Part shown: in pieces, positions 4,692-17,480 of the stretch
How the letters are laid out: the number at the start of each line of letters is the position of its first letter
How positions within the stretch are numbered: position 1 is the first letter of the stretch
NCBI GenBank assembly: GCA_002748265.1
Contig: PDRY01000013.1
Location: 248,001 to 312,000, forward strand
Source of the DNA: Rhodobacterales bacterium
GTDB taxonomy: Bacteria > Pseudomonadota > Alphaproteobacteria > Rhodobacterales > Rhodobacteraceae
Direction of reading: 5' to 3'
DNA length: 64,000 nucleotides
The notes under the pieces: model-generated
What the model saw: only the letters and a program-made list of their open reading frames with translations
The model's database searches: none
Told to the model about the DNA's origin: nothing
Translations under genes and position numbers: made by a program

Positions 4692-6535
4692 CAGCGGAAC
4701 CTCGCGTGGACGGCATCAATCGCCGCGCGATCGACGGTCACGTCGGTGTTCACCTGCACATCGCGGGCGAAGGCGCCGAAGATGTCATTGGCGATGGCCT
4801 GAGACAGGCTCTGGTCCAGTTGCGCGCGGGGGGCGGCCAGCTCTTCGCTGTCCGGCGAGCCCTTGGTGATCGCATCGACGCGCAGAACGGCGTCTTCGCC
4901 AGCGGCGGAAACGTGGGCCACGGCCCCGTCAGCGGTGTCAAAGGCGGTGCCCAGGAACCCGTTGGGGGCCGCCGCGATCACATCGGAGCGGCGCAGCGTG
5001 TCGATGGTTTCGGGAGTCAGGCCCAGCTCTTCGAAGCTGGCGCCGCCGTTCAGGCCCTGCACCAGCTCTTGCGTGCGGGCGGCCAGCCGGGTGGCCAGCT
5101 CTTCGGCGCGCCAGGCCGTTTCAACCGCGTCGCGGCTGTCTTCGAACGACAGCGGTGCGGGCGGGGTCACGTTGTCGAGCCGCAGCGCAGCAAGCCCGCC
5201 ATCGTCCAGCTCGATCAGCTCGGGCAGGGCGCCCTGTTCGAGCGTGGGGATCGCGTCGTCAATGGCGGCATAGGCGGCCAGCCCGCCATCCATGCCATTG
5301 CCGGTCCAGTCAAAGCTCTCCAGCTCCATGTCGGAGCGCTCCGCCAGGTCTTCGAGCCGCGCACCGCCCGCGAGCAGGTCGGTGAGCCCCTCGCGGGCCT
5401 GAGCAATCTGGCGGCGGGCCGCTTCGGCGGCCAGCTCTTCGCGCAGGGCGGGGCGGGCGTCTTCGAAGCTGGTGGTTTCGGCGTTCAGCACCGCGTTGAC
5501 GCGGAACAGCGCCGGGCCAAGCCGCGAGGGGGCCGGGCCTGCCACATCGCCCACGGCGGCGGCAAAGACGGCATCGGCGGCGCCGCCCAGATCGTCGCGG
5601 GTCTGATCTCCCAGATCGACATCGTGAAGCGCCAGTCCGCGCTCGGTCACGAGCGCTTCGAAATCGGCCTCGCCAGAGGCGATGCGGGCCATGGCGGCGT
5701 CGGCCTGGGCCTGATCGGCAAAGACCAGACGTTCCACCAGCCGCCGTTCGGGGCGGGCGAATTCATCGGCGCGCTCATCATAGAGCGCGCGCAGGGCGTC
5801 TTCGTCCACGGTTACCGTGTCCTGAAGGCGTTCGGGCAACAGCACAGCGGCGGAGATGCGGCGGGTCTCGGGGGCCATGAAGGTGTCCGCGTTGGCCGTG
5901 TGATAGGCGCGCAAGGTCGCATCATCCGGGGTCGGGATGGGCTGCGTCAGGTTGGCTTCGGTCACCGGGGCCCAGGTGACGGTGCGGGTTTCATCCGCGA
6001 AGGTGATGATCGCATCGCGCAGCGAGGCGGGGGCGGACACGCCCAGAAACACTGCGCTTTGCAGCAGGCCGCGCGACAGCTCATCGCGCAGCTCGCCTTC
6101 GAACTGCGCCTCGGTCAGGCCGGTGCGCTCGAGCTGATAGGCGTAAGCGTCGCGGTCGAACTGGCCGTTCAGCCCCTGGAACGCGGGGCTGGCCACGATC
6201 TGATCGCGCACTGCTTCATCGCCGACGGACAGCCCGAGTTGGGCGGTTTCGTTGTCCAGCACGCGGTTCGTCACCACCCGTGCGAGCACCTGTTCAGTGA
6301 TCCCGTTGGCTTGCGCGGTGGCGATGGACATCGGGCTGCCATCGGCGGCGCGTTCGGCCATCAGCCGCTCCGACAGGGCGTTGGTGTAGGTCTGGAGCGA
6401 GATGCCCTTGTCACCGGCTTGTCCCAGATCGCGGCGCCCGCCAGAGATCCCCGTGGCGCCAAAGCCCATGAGGCCGACGATGAGGAGCGCGAGGACGATC
6501 CAGACGATGAAGTTCTTGGGGCTGGCTGCGGACAT
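4691..6535 (-). CDS. SurA/PpiD-type periplasmic folding chaperone (peptidylprolyl isomerase)
   Basis: A 614-residue protein with a short cytoplasmic N-terminus, one membrane helix (FIVWIVLALLIVGLMGFGA, about residues 9-27) and a large periplasmic part. Residues about 40-165 match the SurA N-terminal chaperone domain (ITEQVLARVVTNRVLDNE). A parvulin-like segment follows around residues 240-350. The layout is that of PpiD, an inner-membrane chaperone for secreted proteins. It is translationally coupled to trpE, an arrangement seen in related bacteria but with no known functional reason. Catalytic activity of the parvulin part is uncertain. Confidence 0.85.
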   Translation of the reverse strand: MSAASPKNFIVWIVLALLIVGLMGFGATGISGGRRDLGQAGDKGISLQTYTNALSERLMAERAADGSPMSIATAQANGITEQVLARVVTNRVLDNETAQLGLSVGDEAVRDQIVASPAFQGLNGQFDRDAYAYQLERTGLTEAQFEGELRDELSRGLLQSAVFLGVSAPASLRDAIITFADETRTVTWAPVTEANLTQPIPTPDDATLRAYHTANADTFMAPETRRISAAVLLPERLQDTVTVDEDALRALYDERADEFARPERRLVERLVFADQAQADAAMARIASGEADFEALVTERGLALHDVDLGDQTRDDLGGAADAVFAAAVGDVAGPAPSRLGPALFRVNAVLNAETTSFEDARPALREELAAEAARRQIAQAREGLTDLLAGGARLEDLAERSDMELESFDWTGNGMDGGLAAYAAIDDAIPTLEQGALPELIELDDGGLAALRLDNVTPPAPLSFEDSRDAVETAWRAEELATRLAARTQELVQGLNGGASFEELGLTPETIDTLRRSDVIAAAPNGFLGTAFDTADGAVAHVSAAGEDAVLRVDAITKGSPDSEELAAPRAQLDQSLSQAIANDIFGAFARDVQVNTDVTVDRAAIDAVHARFR

Positions 6536-6604
6536 GTTTCGCTCCGGTTTGGTGACGGGAAATGTCTAGGGCTGGGAGCCGGGGGGCGCAAGGGAGCGTT
6601 GCCG

Positions 6605-6632
6605 CCGGGGTGAGCAGGCGGTCTGCCCCCGG
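6605..6632 (-). terminator. Hairpin between aminotransferase and PpiD-like gene
   Basis: Inverted repeat with outer arms CCGGGG/CCCCGG and inner arms GCAG/CTGC, located 37 bases after the aminotransferase stop in the direction of transcription and about 70 bases before the chaperone gene. No U tract. It may separate the two transcripts. Confidence 0.4.
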
Positions 6633-6668
6633 ATGCGGCTCCGAGGGCGTTTCCATCCTGTAGATGAA

Positions 6669-7832
6669 TCAGGGGGTGAGCAGGCTCAAGCGCTCCGCAA
6701 GCGTGGCGATGCCGGTGGCATCGACATTGGCAAAGGCGATCCGCACGCTGTGCGCGCCGCTCGGGTCATTCTTTGGTTTGAACATCGTGCCCGGCAGCAG
6801 CAGCACGCCCGCCTCGCGCACCAGGCGCGGGGCAAGGGTGGCAGAGCTTTCGTTGAACGGGTGGTCGAGCCAGGCGAAATAGGCGCCGCAGCCGCGCAGG
6901 CGCCAACCTTCGGGGAGGGGAGCCGCGCGCATGGCCGCGCCCCGGGCGAGGATCTCGCCGCGCTGCTCTGCCAGCCAGGGATCGAGGTTTTCGATCCCCC
7001 AAAGCGCCGCGTGCTGGCCGAGCTGGGCCGGGCAGATCGTCACCGTGTCGAGGTATTTCTCCATCTGCGAGAGCAGGTCCGCGCTCGCCGTGATGGCGCC
7101 AACCCGGTGGCCGGTGAGCCGGTAGGATTTGGAGAACGAGTAGAGCTGGATCAGCGTGTCGTCCCAATCGGGATCGGTAAAGAGCCCATGGGGCGCTCCG
7201 TCCACGCTGTGGAAGTCGCGGTAGGTTTCGTCGATCACCAGCTTGATACCGCGCGCCCGCGCCAGATCTAAGAAGGCGCGCAGGAGCTCCGCGGGATATT
7301 CGACGCCACCGGGGTTGTTGGGCGAAATCAACAGGATCGCGCGGGTCTTTGATGTGATGAGCGAGGCGGCGCGCTCCGGGTCGGGCAGAAGGTCATCCCC
7401 CGTGGGCAGATCGCGCAGGCGCACCCCGGCCATGTCGCAGGCCATGGCATGGTTGAAATACCAGGGCGTGGGCGCGATCACCTCATCGCCCTCACCGCAT
7501 AGGGCAGCGAGCGTGGCGGTGAAGGCCTCGTTGCAGCCGGACGTGATGGCGATATTCGCCGCGCTCGTGCTGGCGCCGTAAAGCCGGTTCCAGCGGGCGG
7601 AGATCGCCTCGCGCAGGGCGGGCAGGCCCAGCACCGGGCCATAGAGATGGACGTCCGGGTTTTCTTCGATCAGCCGGGCCATATGCGCCCGCATCGGCGC
7701 CGGGGGCGGGTCCACCGGTGCGGCTTGCGAGACGTTCAGGAGGGGGCGGCCTTCGGGAAAGCGCACGCCGTCAAGCCAGCGGCGCGCCTCCATCACGGGC
7801 GGCGCGAAGGTCTGCGCGGTGCGGGCGGTCAT
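6669..7832 (-). CDS. Pyridoxal-phosphate-dependent aminotransferase, class I/II
   Basis: A 387-residue fold-type I aminotransferase. The lysine that binds PLP sits in YSFSKSYRLTGHRVG (about residues 230-244). The cofactor-binding region TSGCNEAFTATLAALCGEGDEV, the LISPNNPGG loop and the DETYRDF aspartate are all present. Related proteins act on aspartate, aromatic or other amino acids; substrate cannot be read from the sequence. Six bases separate it from the upstream phosphoribosyltransferase gene, so they are probably co-transcribed. ATG at 7832. Confidence 0.88.
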   Translation of the reverse strand: MTARTAQTFAPPVMEARRWLDGVRFPEGRPLLNVSQAAPVDPPPAPMRAHMARLIEENPDVHLYGPVLGLPALREAISARWNRLYGASTSAANIAITSGCNEAFTATLAALCGEGDEVIAPTPWYFNHAMACDMAGVRLRDLPTGDDLLPDPERAASLITSKTRAILLISPNNPGGVEYPAELLRAFLDLARARGIKLVIDETYRDFHSVDGAPHGLFTDPDWDDTLIQLYSFSKSYRLTGHRVGAITASADLLSQMEKYLDTVTICPAQLGQHAALWGIENLDPWLAEQRGEILARGAAMRAAPLPEGWRLRGCGAYFAWLDHPFNESSATLAPRLVREAGVLLLPGTMFKPKNDPSGAHSVRIAFANVDATGIATLAERLSLLTP

Positions 7833-12473: not shown

Positions 12474-12550
12474 CGGGGCGTGGCGCAGTCTGGTAGCGCA
12501 CCTGTTTTGGGTACAGGGGGTCGTGAGTTCGAATCTCGCCGCCCCGACCA
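12474..12550 (+). tRNA. tRNA-Pro (anticodon UGG)
   Basis: A 77-base cloverleaf with encoded CCA. The acceptor arms CGGGGCG (12474-12480) and CGCCCCG (12540-12546) pair fully. The anticodon arm CCTGT-TTTGGGT-ACAGG puts TGG at 12508-12510. The D arm contains GGTAGCGCA and the T arm contains GTTCGAATC. It reads proline CCN codons. tRNA 3' ends are frequent integration sites; no second copy of its 3' end was seen in the window. Confidence 0.97.
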
Positions 12551-12610
12551 CGGTTCCGATATCTCTGGGTTCTGCTGGGCAATGGTGTGCCGGTTCGATA
12601 CCTAGGACGG

Positions 12611-15322
12611 ATGAAACCATCAGCCTCCCTTCCCTTCGTCGCGGTTGCTGCCGCCACTGCCGTGGCGTTCTGGGCGCTCAAGCCGATTTTCATATCCATG
12701 ATCGGGGACCGCGCCGGCTACGCAGAGGTCTTCGTCGCGGCTGGCCTGATCTCCGTGGCCTCAAGTCTGTTCTGCGCCGTCCTGATGTGGCGCCGGTCAT
12801 TCCGTCTGCTACGTGATCGGCGCGCGCTTTACGGGCTGGCCCAGGCCGCGATCTCCGGAGGATTTCTGGCGCTTTGGTACTATGGGTTCTATCGGGCCCT
12901 TTATGGCGCGGCCAAGGTGGACGCGACGGTCATCGCCTTTACCTGGCCGCTTATATCCATCCTGGCCATGCGGCTATTTGCACCGCACCATGGGCGATCT
13001 CTCAAAGGCAGCGAATACGCGTTGATCTTCGTGTCCTTTGCCGGGGCCGTATCCATCGGATTGTCGGGTCTGACATCGGGTGGGGGCAGTGGCGAAGAGA
13101 TCATTTTCGCGTTTGTCGCTGCGATCGGTTCGGGCTTTTACCTGCCCTTCGCGATCAACGCGATCAGCCGCTTCAGTGACATCTTGGGATCCAAGATCAC
13201 GGGCACCTTCTACGTCATTTCGGTCGCGAATGCCGTGGCCCTGCTGGCGGTGTCCGTGCAACTGAAGCTGAGCGGCTCGGCGCTTTATTTCTACGGGTTC
13301 GACACGCAGGTCTGGCTGATCTGCGCATTGATCGGGATCGGCACATATCTGGTTGCGGAAATCACATGGACCTGGGCCTTCTCCGAATACCAGTCGCTGA
13401 CACTGTCCACACTGCCCTACTTTTCGCCCGCCCTGTCGGTGATCCTCCTCTATATACTGTTCGATGAGCCCGTGGCCCCGATTGCCGCGTTCGGGCTGGT
13501 GCTGGTCCTGTTTTCAAACATGACGCTGCACGGGATGTATAAATCCAACAACGCGATGATCATGGCCCTGATCGGCACGATTTACGTCGCTTTAGCCTCG
13601 CAGATCGTGCCGCCCTTGCGCAGTGATCTGGCGGTGGACCTTTTGTTTGCGATCTCTGGACTGTTCGCGATCCTCGCGGGTTTCGTCTTGTCTCGGGTCT
13701 CCGGGCGGCGGGCGCAGGAGTTGGATGCCAGGTCCCGACTGGTCAGGGCGGTTCTCGCACAGCAGGACAGCGCGCCTGCGGATCATCTGGATGCGATTTT
13801 CCGCGATCTGGTTGATCTGCAGTTCACGCCCGGTGTCGCAGCCCAGGAAGCGCAGGCGGGTGTGCTGCGCAGACGGCTGGCGGAGTTGGGAGCCTCCGCG
13901 CCCATGGAGGCTTTTGATGCATGGTTCACGATCCACGGAGACCGGCTGTCACTAGGAGAGAAGGCGGCTCTGTGGATCACCGGCCTTGGCAGCATTCTGT
14001 TCCTGATGATCGTGCGCGACGATAGCCCTATTGGGCTTATCGGCCTCTATGTCTTTGCGGCCGGTTGTCTTCTGATGATTTTTTCCATCAGCGACTATGA
14101 GCAAAACAACCTGCACGGCTTTCGAAACCAGATCATGCGGCTGCAACAAGGGTTTGTCGAACTCGGCCGTCCATATTACCTGCCTGCGGCCCTGATCGGT
14201 AGCCGCGAGCTGAGCGCTCTACCTGCGGGGGCCGTCGTGCGCCACAAATCCGAGGGCGGATTGCTGGCCGAAGACCGCGTGGCCCCTCGGGGCGGGGCTT
14301 TCCGTGTGATCTATTGGCTGTCTGCCGCGCTCGTCGCTGCGTCTCTTGTTGTCTTGCCGCTCAGCGCCCGGCAGGACGCCGACCGCGGGTTGGGGCGGGT
14401 CATGCGTCCCGAGCAGATTGCCGGGCGTCTCCTTGACCAACTGCGTCCCGGCGTGGCGGATGTGACAATCGCGCGCCTGGACTGGGATGCAAGCCGAGTG
14501 ATCGCAGAGATTTTGCGCGCGGTCATTGTCGAAGGACACGGGCTGAACGTGTCCATTCGAGATGCGCGGGTCGATGAGGTCTTCCCCGAGATGGCCTCTG
14601 ATGGAGGAAGCATCGACGTTCACCCCGATCTCTGGACGGGCAACCAGGCCGAGAACCTGCGCCGCTACATCGAGGACCAGGCCGCCGTCCGGCTCAATAT
14701 TATGCCGTACCAAGGTGTGCAGGGCGTGTTTGCGCCGCGGGAGATCGTTGAACAGCTTGCGCTGCGGGGCATTGAAGATCTCCGCCGCCCCGACGTCATC
14801 GCCCGGTTTGATTCTGACAAGGATGGCCGCGGTGAAATATGGCTGGGCGCCCAGGGGTGGAAGTCGACCGACCTGATGGCGCAGATGCTGCGCAATTCGG
14901 GGCTCGATGCGGATTGGGAGGGGCAGGTCTTCTCGGACCGAATCTTTAAGGCCAAGCTGGAGCGTGACCGCGCGCGCGGCGTCGCGACGCTGTTCTATGG
15001 CTATGCCCCCGACTGGATTCACGCGGTCTACGATCTGACAGAGATCACCGGCCTTGCCGAAGCCGGTCAGCATACCTGCCTGGACACGGTGCCTGATCCG
15101 CTATGTGCGCTGTCCCCGGTGGCCGTGCATGTCGCCTACGCGGCGCGGCTCGAGGAATCGTTTCCTGAGGTGGCGCACACCCTTCGCCATGTGTCCTTTC
15201 GGGTCGAGGACCTGAATACATGGCTGGCCGCCACGTCCCATGACGGGGATCGGCCCGAGGACGTGGCCGCAAGATGGCTGTCGCAAAACCCCCAAAGAAT
15301 TAAAGAGTGGCTGGGCCGGTGA
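12611..15322 (+). CDS. EamA/DMT transporter fused to a periplasmic OpuAC-like (betaine-binding) domain
   Basis: A 903-residue protein with an unusual domain order. Residues about 5-150 and 160-308 look like two EamA units, ten helices ([38 protein letters not shown]). One or two more helices reach residue 362, then a soluble stretch to about 450, a helix pair at about 453-494, a further linker and a helix at about 565-585. Residues about 610-903 resemble the glycine-betaine/choline-binding OpuAC domain: [41 protein letters not shown] and a C-terminal [15 protein letters not shown]. Drug/metabolite transporters normally lack a binding protein. The ATG at 12611 is chosen; a GTG at 12587 is possible. 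It lies 60 bases after tRNA-Pro and 140 bases before nuoG. Substrate is inference. Confidence 0.8.
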
Positions 15323-15461: not shown

Positions 15462-17480
15462 ATGTCCGACAAGCGCGCAATCGTCATCGACGGAAAAGAG
15501 ATCGAGGTCGATCCGGCCATGACCCTGCTTCAGGCCTGCGAACAGGCCGGGGTCGAAGTGCCGCGCTTCTGCTATCATGAGCGCCTGTCCATCGCCGGCA
15601 ACTGCCGCATGTGCCTTGTCGAAGTTGTGGGCGGCCCGCCCAAGCCCGCCGCCTCCTGCGCCATGCAGGTGCGCGATTTGCGCCCCGGGCCCGAAGGCCA
15701 GCCGCCGGTGGTGAAAACCAACAGCCCGATGGTCAAGAAAGCCCGCGAAGGGGTGATGGAGTTCCTGCTCATCAACCACCCGCTTGATTGCCCGATCTGC
15801 GATCAGGGCGGCGAATGCGATCTTCAGGATCAGGCCATGGCTTATGGCGTCGATTTCTCGCGCTACCGCGAGCCCAAGCGTGCGGTCACCGATCTGGATC
15901 TGGGCCCGCTTGTGGAAACCCACATGACGCGCTGCATCTCCTGCACCCGCTGCGTGCGGTTCACCAGCGAAGTCGCCGGGATCAGCCAGATGGGCCAGAC
16001 CGGGCGCGGCGAAGATGCGGAGATCACCTCCTATCTGAACCAGACGCTCGATTCGAACCTTCAGGGCAATATCATCGACCTGTGTCCGGTGGGCGCGCTG
16101 ACCAGCAAGCCCTACGCCTTCACCGCCCGCCCTTGGGAGCTGACCAAGACCGAATCCATTGACGTGATGGATGCTCTGGGCAGCAATATCCGCGTGGACA
16201 CCAAAGGGCGCGAAGTGATGCGGATCATGCCGCGCAACCATGACGGCGTGAACGAAGAGTGGATCTCCGACAAGACCCGGTTCATCTGGGACGGCCTGCG
16301 CCGCCAGCGTCTGGACACGCCCTATATCCGTGAGAACGGCAAGCTGCGCAAAGCCGATTGGGATGAGGCTCTGGGCCTTGTCGCCGAAAAGGTGAAAGGC
16401 GCCGAAAAGCTGGCTGGGATCGTCGGTGATCTTGCGCCAGTGGAAGCGGTGTTCAGCCTCAAGCAGTTCATTGAAGGTCAGGGCGGTGTTGTCGAATGCC
16501 GCACCGATGGGGCGAAGTTGCCTGCGGGGAACCGCTCTGCCTATGTCGGCACCGCCACCATCGAAGAGATCGAGGATGCGAAGTTCATCCAGTTGATCGG
16601 CACTGATCCCCGGGTTGAGGCGCCGGTCCTGAACGCCCGGATCCGCAAGGCCTGGCTGAACGGGGCCGAGGTCGGTCTGGTGGGCGAGCCCGTCGATCTG
16701 ACCTATGACTACGCCCATGTTGGCACCGACCGTGCGGCGCTGCAAAGCCTGCTGGATCGCGACTACGGGGCTGTGAAAGATGCGGCGTCGGTCGTGATCG
16801 TGGGGCAGGGCGCTCTCAATGAGGCCGACGGTGCTGCCGTGCTGGCCGCTGCGATGGCGCTGACGGAAGCTACGAATTCCAAACTCTTGGTTCTGCACAC
16901 CGCCGCTGCACGCGTTGGCGCTCTGGATGTGGATGCCACCAATGAGCGCGGCATGGATGCCGTCTCCGAAGCGGACGTGATCTACAATCTCGGCGCCGAT
17001 GAGCTGGAGATCGGCGAAGGCGCCTTTGTGATCTACCAGGGCAGCCATGGCGATCGCGGCGCGCACCGGGCCGATGTGATCTTGCCCGCGGCCACTTACG
17101 CCGAAGAAAACGGGCTGTTCGTGAACACCGAAGGCCGTCCGCAACTGGCGATGCGCGCCGGGTTCGCACCGGGCCAGGCCAAGGAGAACTGGGCGATCCT
17201 GCGGGCGCTGTCGGCCCGCTGCGAGGCCACGCAGCCTTGGGATTCGCTGGCCGCGCTGCGCAGTGCACTGATCGAGGCGGTGCCGCATCTGGCGCAGATC
17301 GACACGGTGCCCGAAAACGACTGGCAGCCGCTGGAGCGGCGCGATCTGGGTAAGGCCGATTTCCGCGGCGCGATTCGCGACTTCTACCTGACCAACCCGA
17401 TTGCCCGCGCATCGGCCACCATGGCCGAGCTGTCGCAGCAGGCGCAGGCGCGCCGGAACGGAAAGATTGCGGCGGAGTAA
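15462..17480 (+). CDS. nuoG: NADH-quinone oxidoreductase subunit G
   Basis: The 672-residue iron-sulfur subunit of the complex I peripheral arm. Cluster ligands are visible in order: the 2Fe-2S set ([15 protein letters not shown], then ASC), the His-Cys3 set ([14 protein letters not shown]) and two 4Fe-4S sets (CISCTRC, CPVGAL). A molybdopterin-oxidoreductase-like domain without cofactor follows. The ATG at 15462 has GGAGG six bases upstream. It is the first nuo gene here; nuoA to nuoF are not upstream, unlike the contiguous Paracoccus cluster. Starts the 14 kb nuo-birA-coaX-rnj gene run. Confidence 0.96.

Follow-up and report, generated by a model that had tools for sequence, protein, structure and literature searches.

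A gene encoding a protein of 903 residues is present at positions 12611 to 15322 of a 64,000-nucleotide stretch of DNA (termed the window) from a Rhodobacterales bacterium, corresponding to positions 248,001 to 312,000 of contig PDRY01000013.1 in assembly GCA_002748265.1. This gene, like all of its features described below, is on the + strand and forms a single intact reading frame from an ATG at 12611 to a TGA ending at 15322; an alternative GTG start at 12587 would add eight residues. From the N to the C terminus, the protein consists of a carrier of the EamA/drug-metabolite transporter (DMT) type, a five-helix extension containing two cytoplasmic stretches and an OpuAC domain, a binding domain of the quaternary-amine type. 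An earlier note, made from the letters of this DNA alone, had proposed that a carrier and an OpuAC-like domain were fused in one 903-residue chain, and the intact frame, the domain matches and six full-length homologues with the same architecture demonstrated that this fusion is real. A Pfam scan of the window protein up to an E value of 1 detected EamA and OpuAC alone and no ATP-binding cassette (ABC) permease or other ABC domain and no component of a tripartite ATP-independent periplasmic (TRAP) or tripartite tricarboxylate transporter (TTT) system; hence, a membrane part of the TRAP, TTT or ABC kind was rejected.

Hydropathy averaged over the seven homologous proteins exhibited 16 peaks above 0.9. 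Ten of these were located within residues 1 to 306, in agreement with the ten carrier helices counted previously, and the others were at residues 324, 354, 461, 484, 575 and 638. The weakest peak, at residue 638 (0.94), falls inside the OpuAC domain; we interpret it as a buried helix and do not count it among the membrane helices. The carrier (residues 1 to 312; 12611..13546) was assigned from the ten peaks, from identity among the homologues and from a sub-cut-off match to the Pfam EamA family (PF00892), which extended over two stretches with an E value of 4.5e-5 and 24.2 bits relative to a cut-off of 28.2. Among three homologues scanned, this profile exceeded its cut-off in Promicromonospora sukumoe (31.6 bits) but, as in the window protein, remained under it in Gordonia (22.9 bits) and in a Rhodobacteraceae metagenome-assembled genome (MAG; 15.2 bits). 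A full-length model of low confidence (predicted local distance difference test [pLDDT] score of 57.4) gave weak matches, with E values of 0.02 to 0.04, to 5i20, which we take to be YddG, and to LicB (7paf); the Foldseek list for the same poor model also contained unrelated carriers (PepT and MATE) at lower probability. A profile search of the Protein Data Bank (PDB) with the carrier alignment retrieved four triose phosphate isomerases (E values of 0.75 to 0.98) but not a single carrier.

The extension begins with helices 11 and 12 (residues 313 to 372; 13547..13726), which were recognized by hydropathy and end in a conserved RVSGRR stretch. These are followed by a variable cytoplasmic stretch with 32 to 41% identity (residues 373 to 445; 13727..13945), by helices 13 and 14 (residues 446 to 496; 13946..14098), again recognized by hydropathy, by a second cytoplasmic stretch (residues 497 to 563; 14099..14299) and by helix 15 (residues ∼566 to 584; 14306..14362; hydropathy peak at 575), which takes the chain outside; the positions of both stretches and the exit through helix 15 were derived from predicted topology. 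The peaks and this topology matched the additional helices, cytoplasmic middle region and final helix before OpuAC that had been described beforehand. No Pfam family over cut-off, including any signalling domain, was detected within residues 313 to 600 of the seven members scanned. Matches in this region to YrhK (one of seven members, E value of 0.077) and DUF7262 (two of seven, E value of 0.023 or worse) were taken as chance, and a PDB profile search returned nothing credible, the best match being a KRas chimera with an E value of 0.055.

The C-terminal ∼290 residues were confirmed as OpuAC by both profile and fold, this being one of the two points on which the earlier note had staked the fusion. 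The Pfam OpuAC profile (PF04069) was matched nearly completely over residues 617 to 892 (14459..15286), with an E value of 1.7e-37 and 129.9 bits relative to a cut-off of 21.2, and the three motifs quoted in that note all map to this part. Matches to ProX and to the choline-binding subfamily in NCBIfam were far under their cut-offs. An AlphaFold model of the domain, generated from a seven-row alignment, had a pLDDT of 73.5 and a predicted template modelling score (pTM) of 0.70, and its best fold matches were TmoX, ChoX, ProX, OpuAC and DmpX, all with the two-lobed fold. Ligand residues of characterized binding proteins, as tabulated in PMC10087775, were utilized for mapping cage positions; the alignment for ChoX contained five of the seven fusions, and ProX positions were counted on a separate alignment. 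By alignment, W625 (14483..14485) and W675 (14633..14635) correspond to ChoX W43 and W90, and W750 (14858..14860) corresponds to W140 of Escherichia coli ProX (N156 in ChoX); all three are invariant in the seven fusions, while Y798 (15002..15004), aligned with ProX W188 and ChoX W205, is Tyr or Phe in every one. The putative aromatic cage, for which the earlier note had suggested looking, was supported by four aromatic positions in sequence alignments rather than by geometry. Three Trp residues and one Tyr or Phe would make a cage compatible with a methylated ammonium compound or a related ligand, without specifying the exact compound.

The OpuAC domain is apparently held outside the membrane and anchored by helix 15, as indicated by predicted topology, the helix count and cysteine pairs. 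An N terminus located inside is usual for such carriers and, combined with fifteen helices, would place OpuAC outside. Short loops predicted to be inside had a mean of 2.3 Lys plus Arg residues versus 1.1 for those outside; exceptions to this trend were the N terminus and the inside loop that precedes helix 9, averaging 1.0, and two outside loops, averaging 2.0. The C823 and C832 pair (15077..15106) is either wholly present or wholly absent, with two cysteines in the C-terminal domain of four fusion proteins and none in the other three. Exactly two cysteines were observed in the matched regions of all 29 free-standing relatives examined (in the same loop in 6 and elsewhere in 23), and the ChoX sequence, taken from its start, has three. 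The two cytoplasmic stretches contain one cysteine in total over all seven proteins. Cysteines that are paired or absent fit a disulfide and, hence, an exported domain, and the predicted topology and cysteine pairs therefore sustained a location outside rather than in the cytoplasm, without which the idea put forward in the note would have failed.

A scan of genome contigs yielded 16 pattern matches, six of which were relatives, each covering nearly the whole query; as the scan relies on exact short patterns, further relatives may have been missed. A search for proteins sharing both domains in the same order was answered by six further genomes: the Rhodobacteraceae MAG, Tropicimonas marinistellae, three Promicromonospora and Gordonia amarae, with full-length identities to the window protein of 52, 52, 47, 47, 48 and 44%, respectively. 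By part, identity was 60 to 65% for the carrier, 50 to 63% for helices 11 and 12, 55 to 69% for helices 13 and 14, 32 to 48% for the cytoplasmic stretches, 20 to 40% around helix 15 and 31 to 46% for OpuAC. The EamA-OpuAC fusion is a small family found in a few distant bacteria of two phyla. No report of such a fusion was found among the papers listed in searches of open-licence PMC text, in line with the statement in the earlier note that none was known, but the protein is not unique. The overall interpretation in that note was supported in part: the architecture, the OpuAC identity and the predicted outside topology stood, and delivery of ligands to the carrier, or sensing of them, is an inference. 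A single branch (99/99; recovered in 99% of 200 bootstrap trees) separated the seven fused OpuAC domains from the 29 free-standing relatives and the one ChoX in the same tree, for which the program warned of long branches meeting. This grouping fits a single fusion event with later transfer between phyla.

The fusion is rare. In genome searches scoring just a few candidates per genome, the core profile matched a single genome among 394 from the family to which the window belongs and a single one among 346 Actinomycetota drawn around P. sukumoe, these being the window's own genome and P. sukumoe itself. With residues 1 to 600 as the query, the window's own genome was once more the sole match among 385 from the class, and a search of the Gordonia family matched two of 201 genomes, namely, Gordonia and one with a carrier-only gene. 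None of the 295 plasmid records matching the window protein covered 80% of the query, indicating no fusion there, and three scans of viral contigs detected no relative.

Four genomes from the same family as the window encode a protein with a carrier and extension but no OpuAC (G097, 576 residues; G080, 551; G069, 539; and G048, 533), and a protein related to that of G080 is split across two frames in G100. Profile comparison with the fusion core gave a probability of 95.2 (E value of 2.5e-8) for G080 over residues 93 to 514, which comprise the carrier and helices 11 to 14, 91.4 (9.1e-7) for G097 over the carrier and helices 11 and 12, and 75.6 (2.4e-5) for G069, whose match also takes in helices 11 and 12. 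G048 connected to this group solely via G097 (E value of 2.1e-6). Very long branches set these four proteins apart from the fusions in a tree of the carrier part (98/99). On plasmids, the G080 core as the query gave no match. The G080 core gene is located ∼60 bp after choV, on the same strand as choX-choW-choV, and is adjoined by betI and the choline sulfatase gene betC on the opposite strand, all five genes being over their NCBIfam cut-offs; the core carrier may be an extra transporter of this choline locus (L071, 1692-8595). Of the other four OpuAC-less loci, examined by eye, three are beside AraC-like or LysR-like genes and one is beside a solute-binding-protein gene. The four carriers of L042, L071, L072 and L073 are divergent EamA-type proteins of 533 to 576 residues that have several additional C-terminal helices and lack a binding domain; the Pfam EamA match was over cut-off in one, under it in two and absent up to an E value of 1 in one.

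A carrier-only homologue of 313 residues is encoded on a plasmid of Tsukamurella tyrosinosolvens and also in genome G1282, with an identical printed N terminus. This homologue clustered with the four fusions of actinobacteria (100/100) and, with weaker support, with that of Gordonia (84/78). The extension and OpuAC were probably lost in this lineage, as judged from its position in the tree.

The seven full-length fusion proteins have a binding domain joined in one chain to a non-ABC carrier, assigned as such on the EamA evidence. We estimate an even chance that the fusion acts, as a single chain, as a secondary transporter that depends on its binding domain and is used for quaternary ammonium compounds of the betaine type or for related methylated compounds. 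OpuAC, tethered outside by helix 15, would capture the ligand in the aromatic cage, close and then dock onto the DMT carrier of the same chain, on the side that faces outward; the ligand would be passed to the carrier and imported using an ion gradient, without an ABC ATPase. This reading starts from the architecture, its conservation, the cage positions as aligned and the outside topology as predicted, to which the suggested ligand class, direction of import, docking, hand-over and energy source would be the most economical addition.

Several observations weigh against transport of this kind. The EamA score of the window protein is below cut-off, the five-helix extension is left unexplained and OpuAC is less conserved than the carrier. 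The ChoX ligand residues D45 and Y119 are replaced (A627 and G705), and the site is, therefore, not ChoX-like throughout. Branching of the Tsukamurella homologue inside the actinobacterial fusions indicates that OpuAC can be lost. The OpuAC-less cores are distant, since the fusion-core profile missed them at an E value of 1e-5 in the genome search and a search with the protein of G080 failed to recover the fusion; relatedness of G048 to the fusion core was not confirmed (probability of 4.6, E value of 0.0087), and choline genes adjoin just one of the five OpuAC-less loci seen. No partner gene common to the fusion loci was seen, except at the common site of the three Promicromonospora, and hence the fusion protein seems to act alone.

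The presence of a conserved extension between the carrier and OpuAC, and its occurrence without OpuAC, make a ligand-gated or sensing carrier the main rival, one we consider unlikely but worth serious attention. OpuAC would detect a quaternary amine outside and either switch the carrier, which may be an importer or an exporter of something else, or signal inward via the extension and cytoplasmic stretches. The extension, with both of these stretches, is kept in all seven fusions and at least partly in the OpuAC-less cores; being conserved beyond a minimal carrier, it is a place where a sensor could attach. However, residues 313 to 600 lack any known signalling domain over cut-off, and the cytoplasmic stretches belong to the less conserved portions of the protein.

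Export is the function of many EamA proteins, and the sole NCBIfam match of the carrier-only homologue was to the exporter YddG (E value of 1.2e-5, far under cut-off). The DMT part could, accordingly, export a quaternary amine or other metabolite that OpuAC retains, buffers or recaptures outside, but this is improbable: to our knowledge, OpuAC-type binding proteins have a role in uptake in characterized cases, and LicB, one of the fold matches, is an importer.

More doubtful still is a role of the DMT part as a mere anchor, with OpuAC feeding a separate ABC permease. Nearby free-standing OpuAC relatives are mostly binding proteins of ABC importers, as an ABC ATPase gene was close by in 10 (L044-L053) of 12 regions picked from search matches, nine being recognized by a Walker motif and one (L046) by a cut ATPase frame. 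The window's own genome has one further OpuAC gene, on contig C1, adjoining bet-type genes and a Walker-bearing frame (by eye). L043, the best match of all, and L054 had no ABC ATPase close by; around their free-standing binding-protein genes (6231-7187 and 5696-6709, respectively), no Walker motif of the searched form was found in the 13 kb covered. A simple anchor is hard to reconcile with the carrier being the best conserved long part, and no ABC genes were seen by eye beside the fusions. In the window, none was seen among the neighbouring translations, and ABC-like genes occur only at ∼0.4 to 1.7 kb and 49.8 to 53.3 kb. An accidental fusion or assembly chimera without function is barely credible: the window's assembly is fragmented (56 contigs, 88% complete), but the same full-length architecture in six other assemblies, at 44 to 52% identity, refutes a chimera as to structure.

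Single-chain transport as preferred here would resemble TRAP and TTT systems in that secondary transport is fed by a binding protein; the membrane parts and binding proteins of those systems are not known to be related to those of the fusion, and the DMT fold is not known to work as an elevator. By profile and by the weak fold matches of a poor model, the carrier half may resemble EamA/DMT carriers, including YddG and LicB, but those known to us are of ∼300 residues and, unlike the fusion, without an extension or binding domain. In PMC12155760, LicB is described as a choline transporter and an EamA gene is located within a choline-demethylation gene cluster. A further relative in principle is TAXI-GltS, reported in 2025; in PMC12344293, TRAP and TTT are given as the sole secondary transporters previously known with a soluble binding protein. 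Like the OpuAC fusion, TAXI-GltS unites in one chain a substrate-binding domain and a secondary carrier that is normally free, and it is likewise rare and patchy. It differs in its binding family (TAXI), in its carrier (GltS, modelled by the authors as an elevator) and in its N-terminal binding domain. The Discussion of that paper asks why binding proteins are absent from more kinds of secondary transporter, proposes that an elevator mechanism is perhaps required and notes that further classes would test this. In Lactococcus lactis OpuA (7ahd and 3l6g; PMC2861598), OpuAC of the same fold is likewise tethered via its own chain to the membrane part; that part is an ATPase-driven ABC permease, whereas the fusion has an EamA/DMT-type carrier and no ABC domain was found in it. 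The periplasmic binding proteins ChoX, ProX and TmoX share the fold and, for ChoX and ProX, the aromatic-cage positions, but are free, while the domain of the fusion is covalently attached behind helix 15 of the carrier. As a candidate class on a fold not known as an elevator, the conserved OpuAC-EamA fusion can test the elevator proposal of PMC12344293, and could reveal if a tethered binding protein is able to supply an ordinary carrier. It is encoded by one gene of a size small enough for expression and, if transport is true, would offer osmoprotectants a compact route that needs no ATPase.

In the Rhodobacteraceae MAG, TRAP-type transporter genes identified by eye precede the fusion gene on the same strand (L035, 94-2714). 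In the window, nuoG (named by eye) starts at 15462, 139 bp beyond the end of the fusion gene. Of two PF01512 (NuoF) matches, the better one was located, together with a NuoE-like fragment, at the very start of another contig, C39 (L066, G000:C39:1-20000), where no nuoG follows; with some of the genes named by eye, this would mean either a rearranged nuo cluster or misjoined contigs. No tRNA gene was found in the seven homologue loci scanned (six full-length and that of Tsukamurella). The fusion gene of the window begins 60 bp past a tRNA-Pro(TGG) gene (12474..12550, + strand), which is upstream context and no part of the protein; tRNA genes are a common type of insertion site for foreign DNA.
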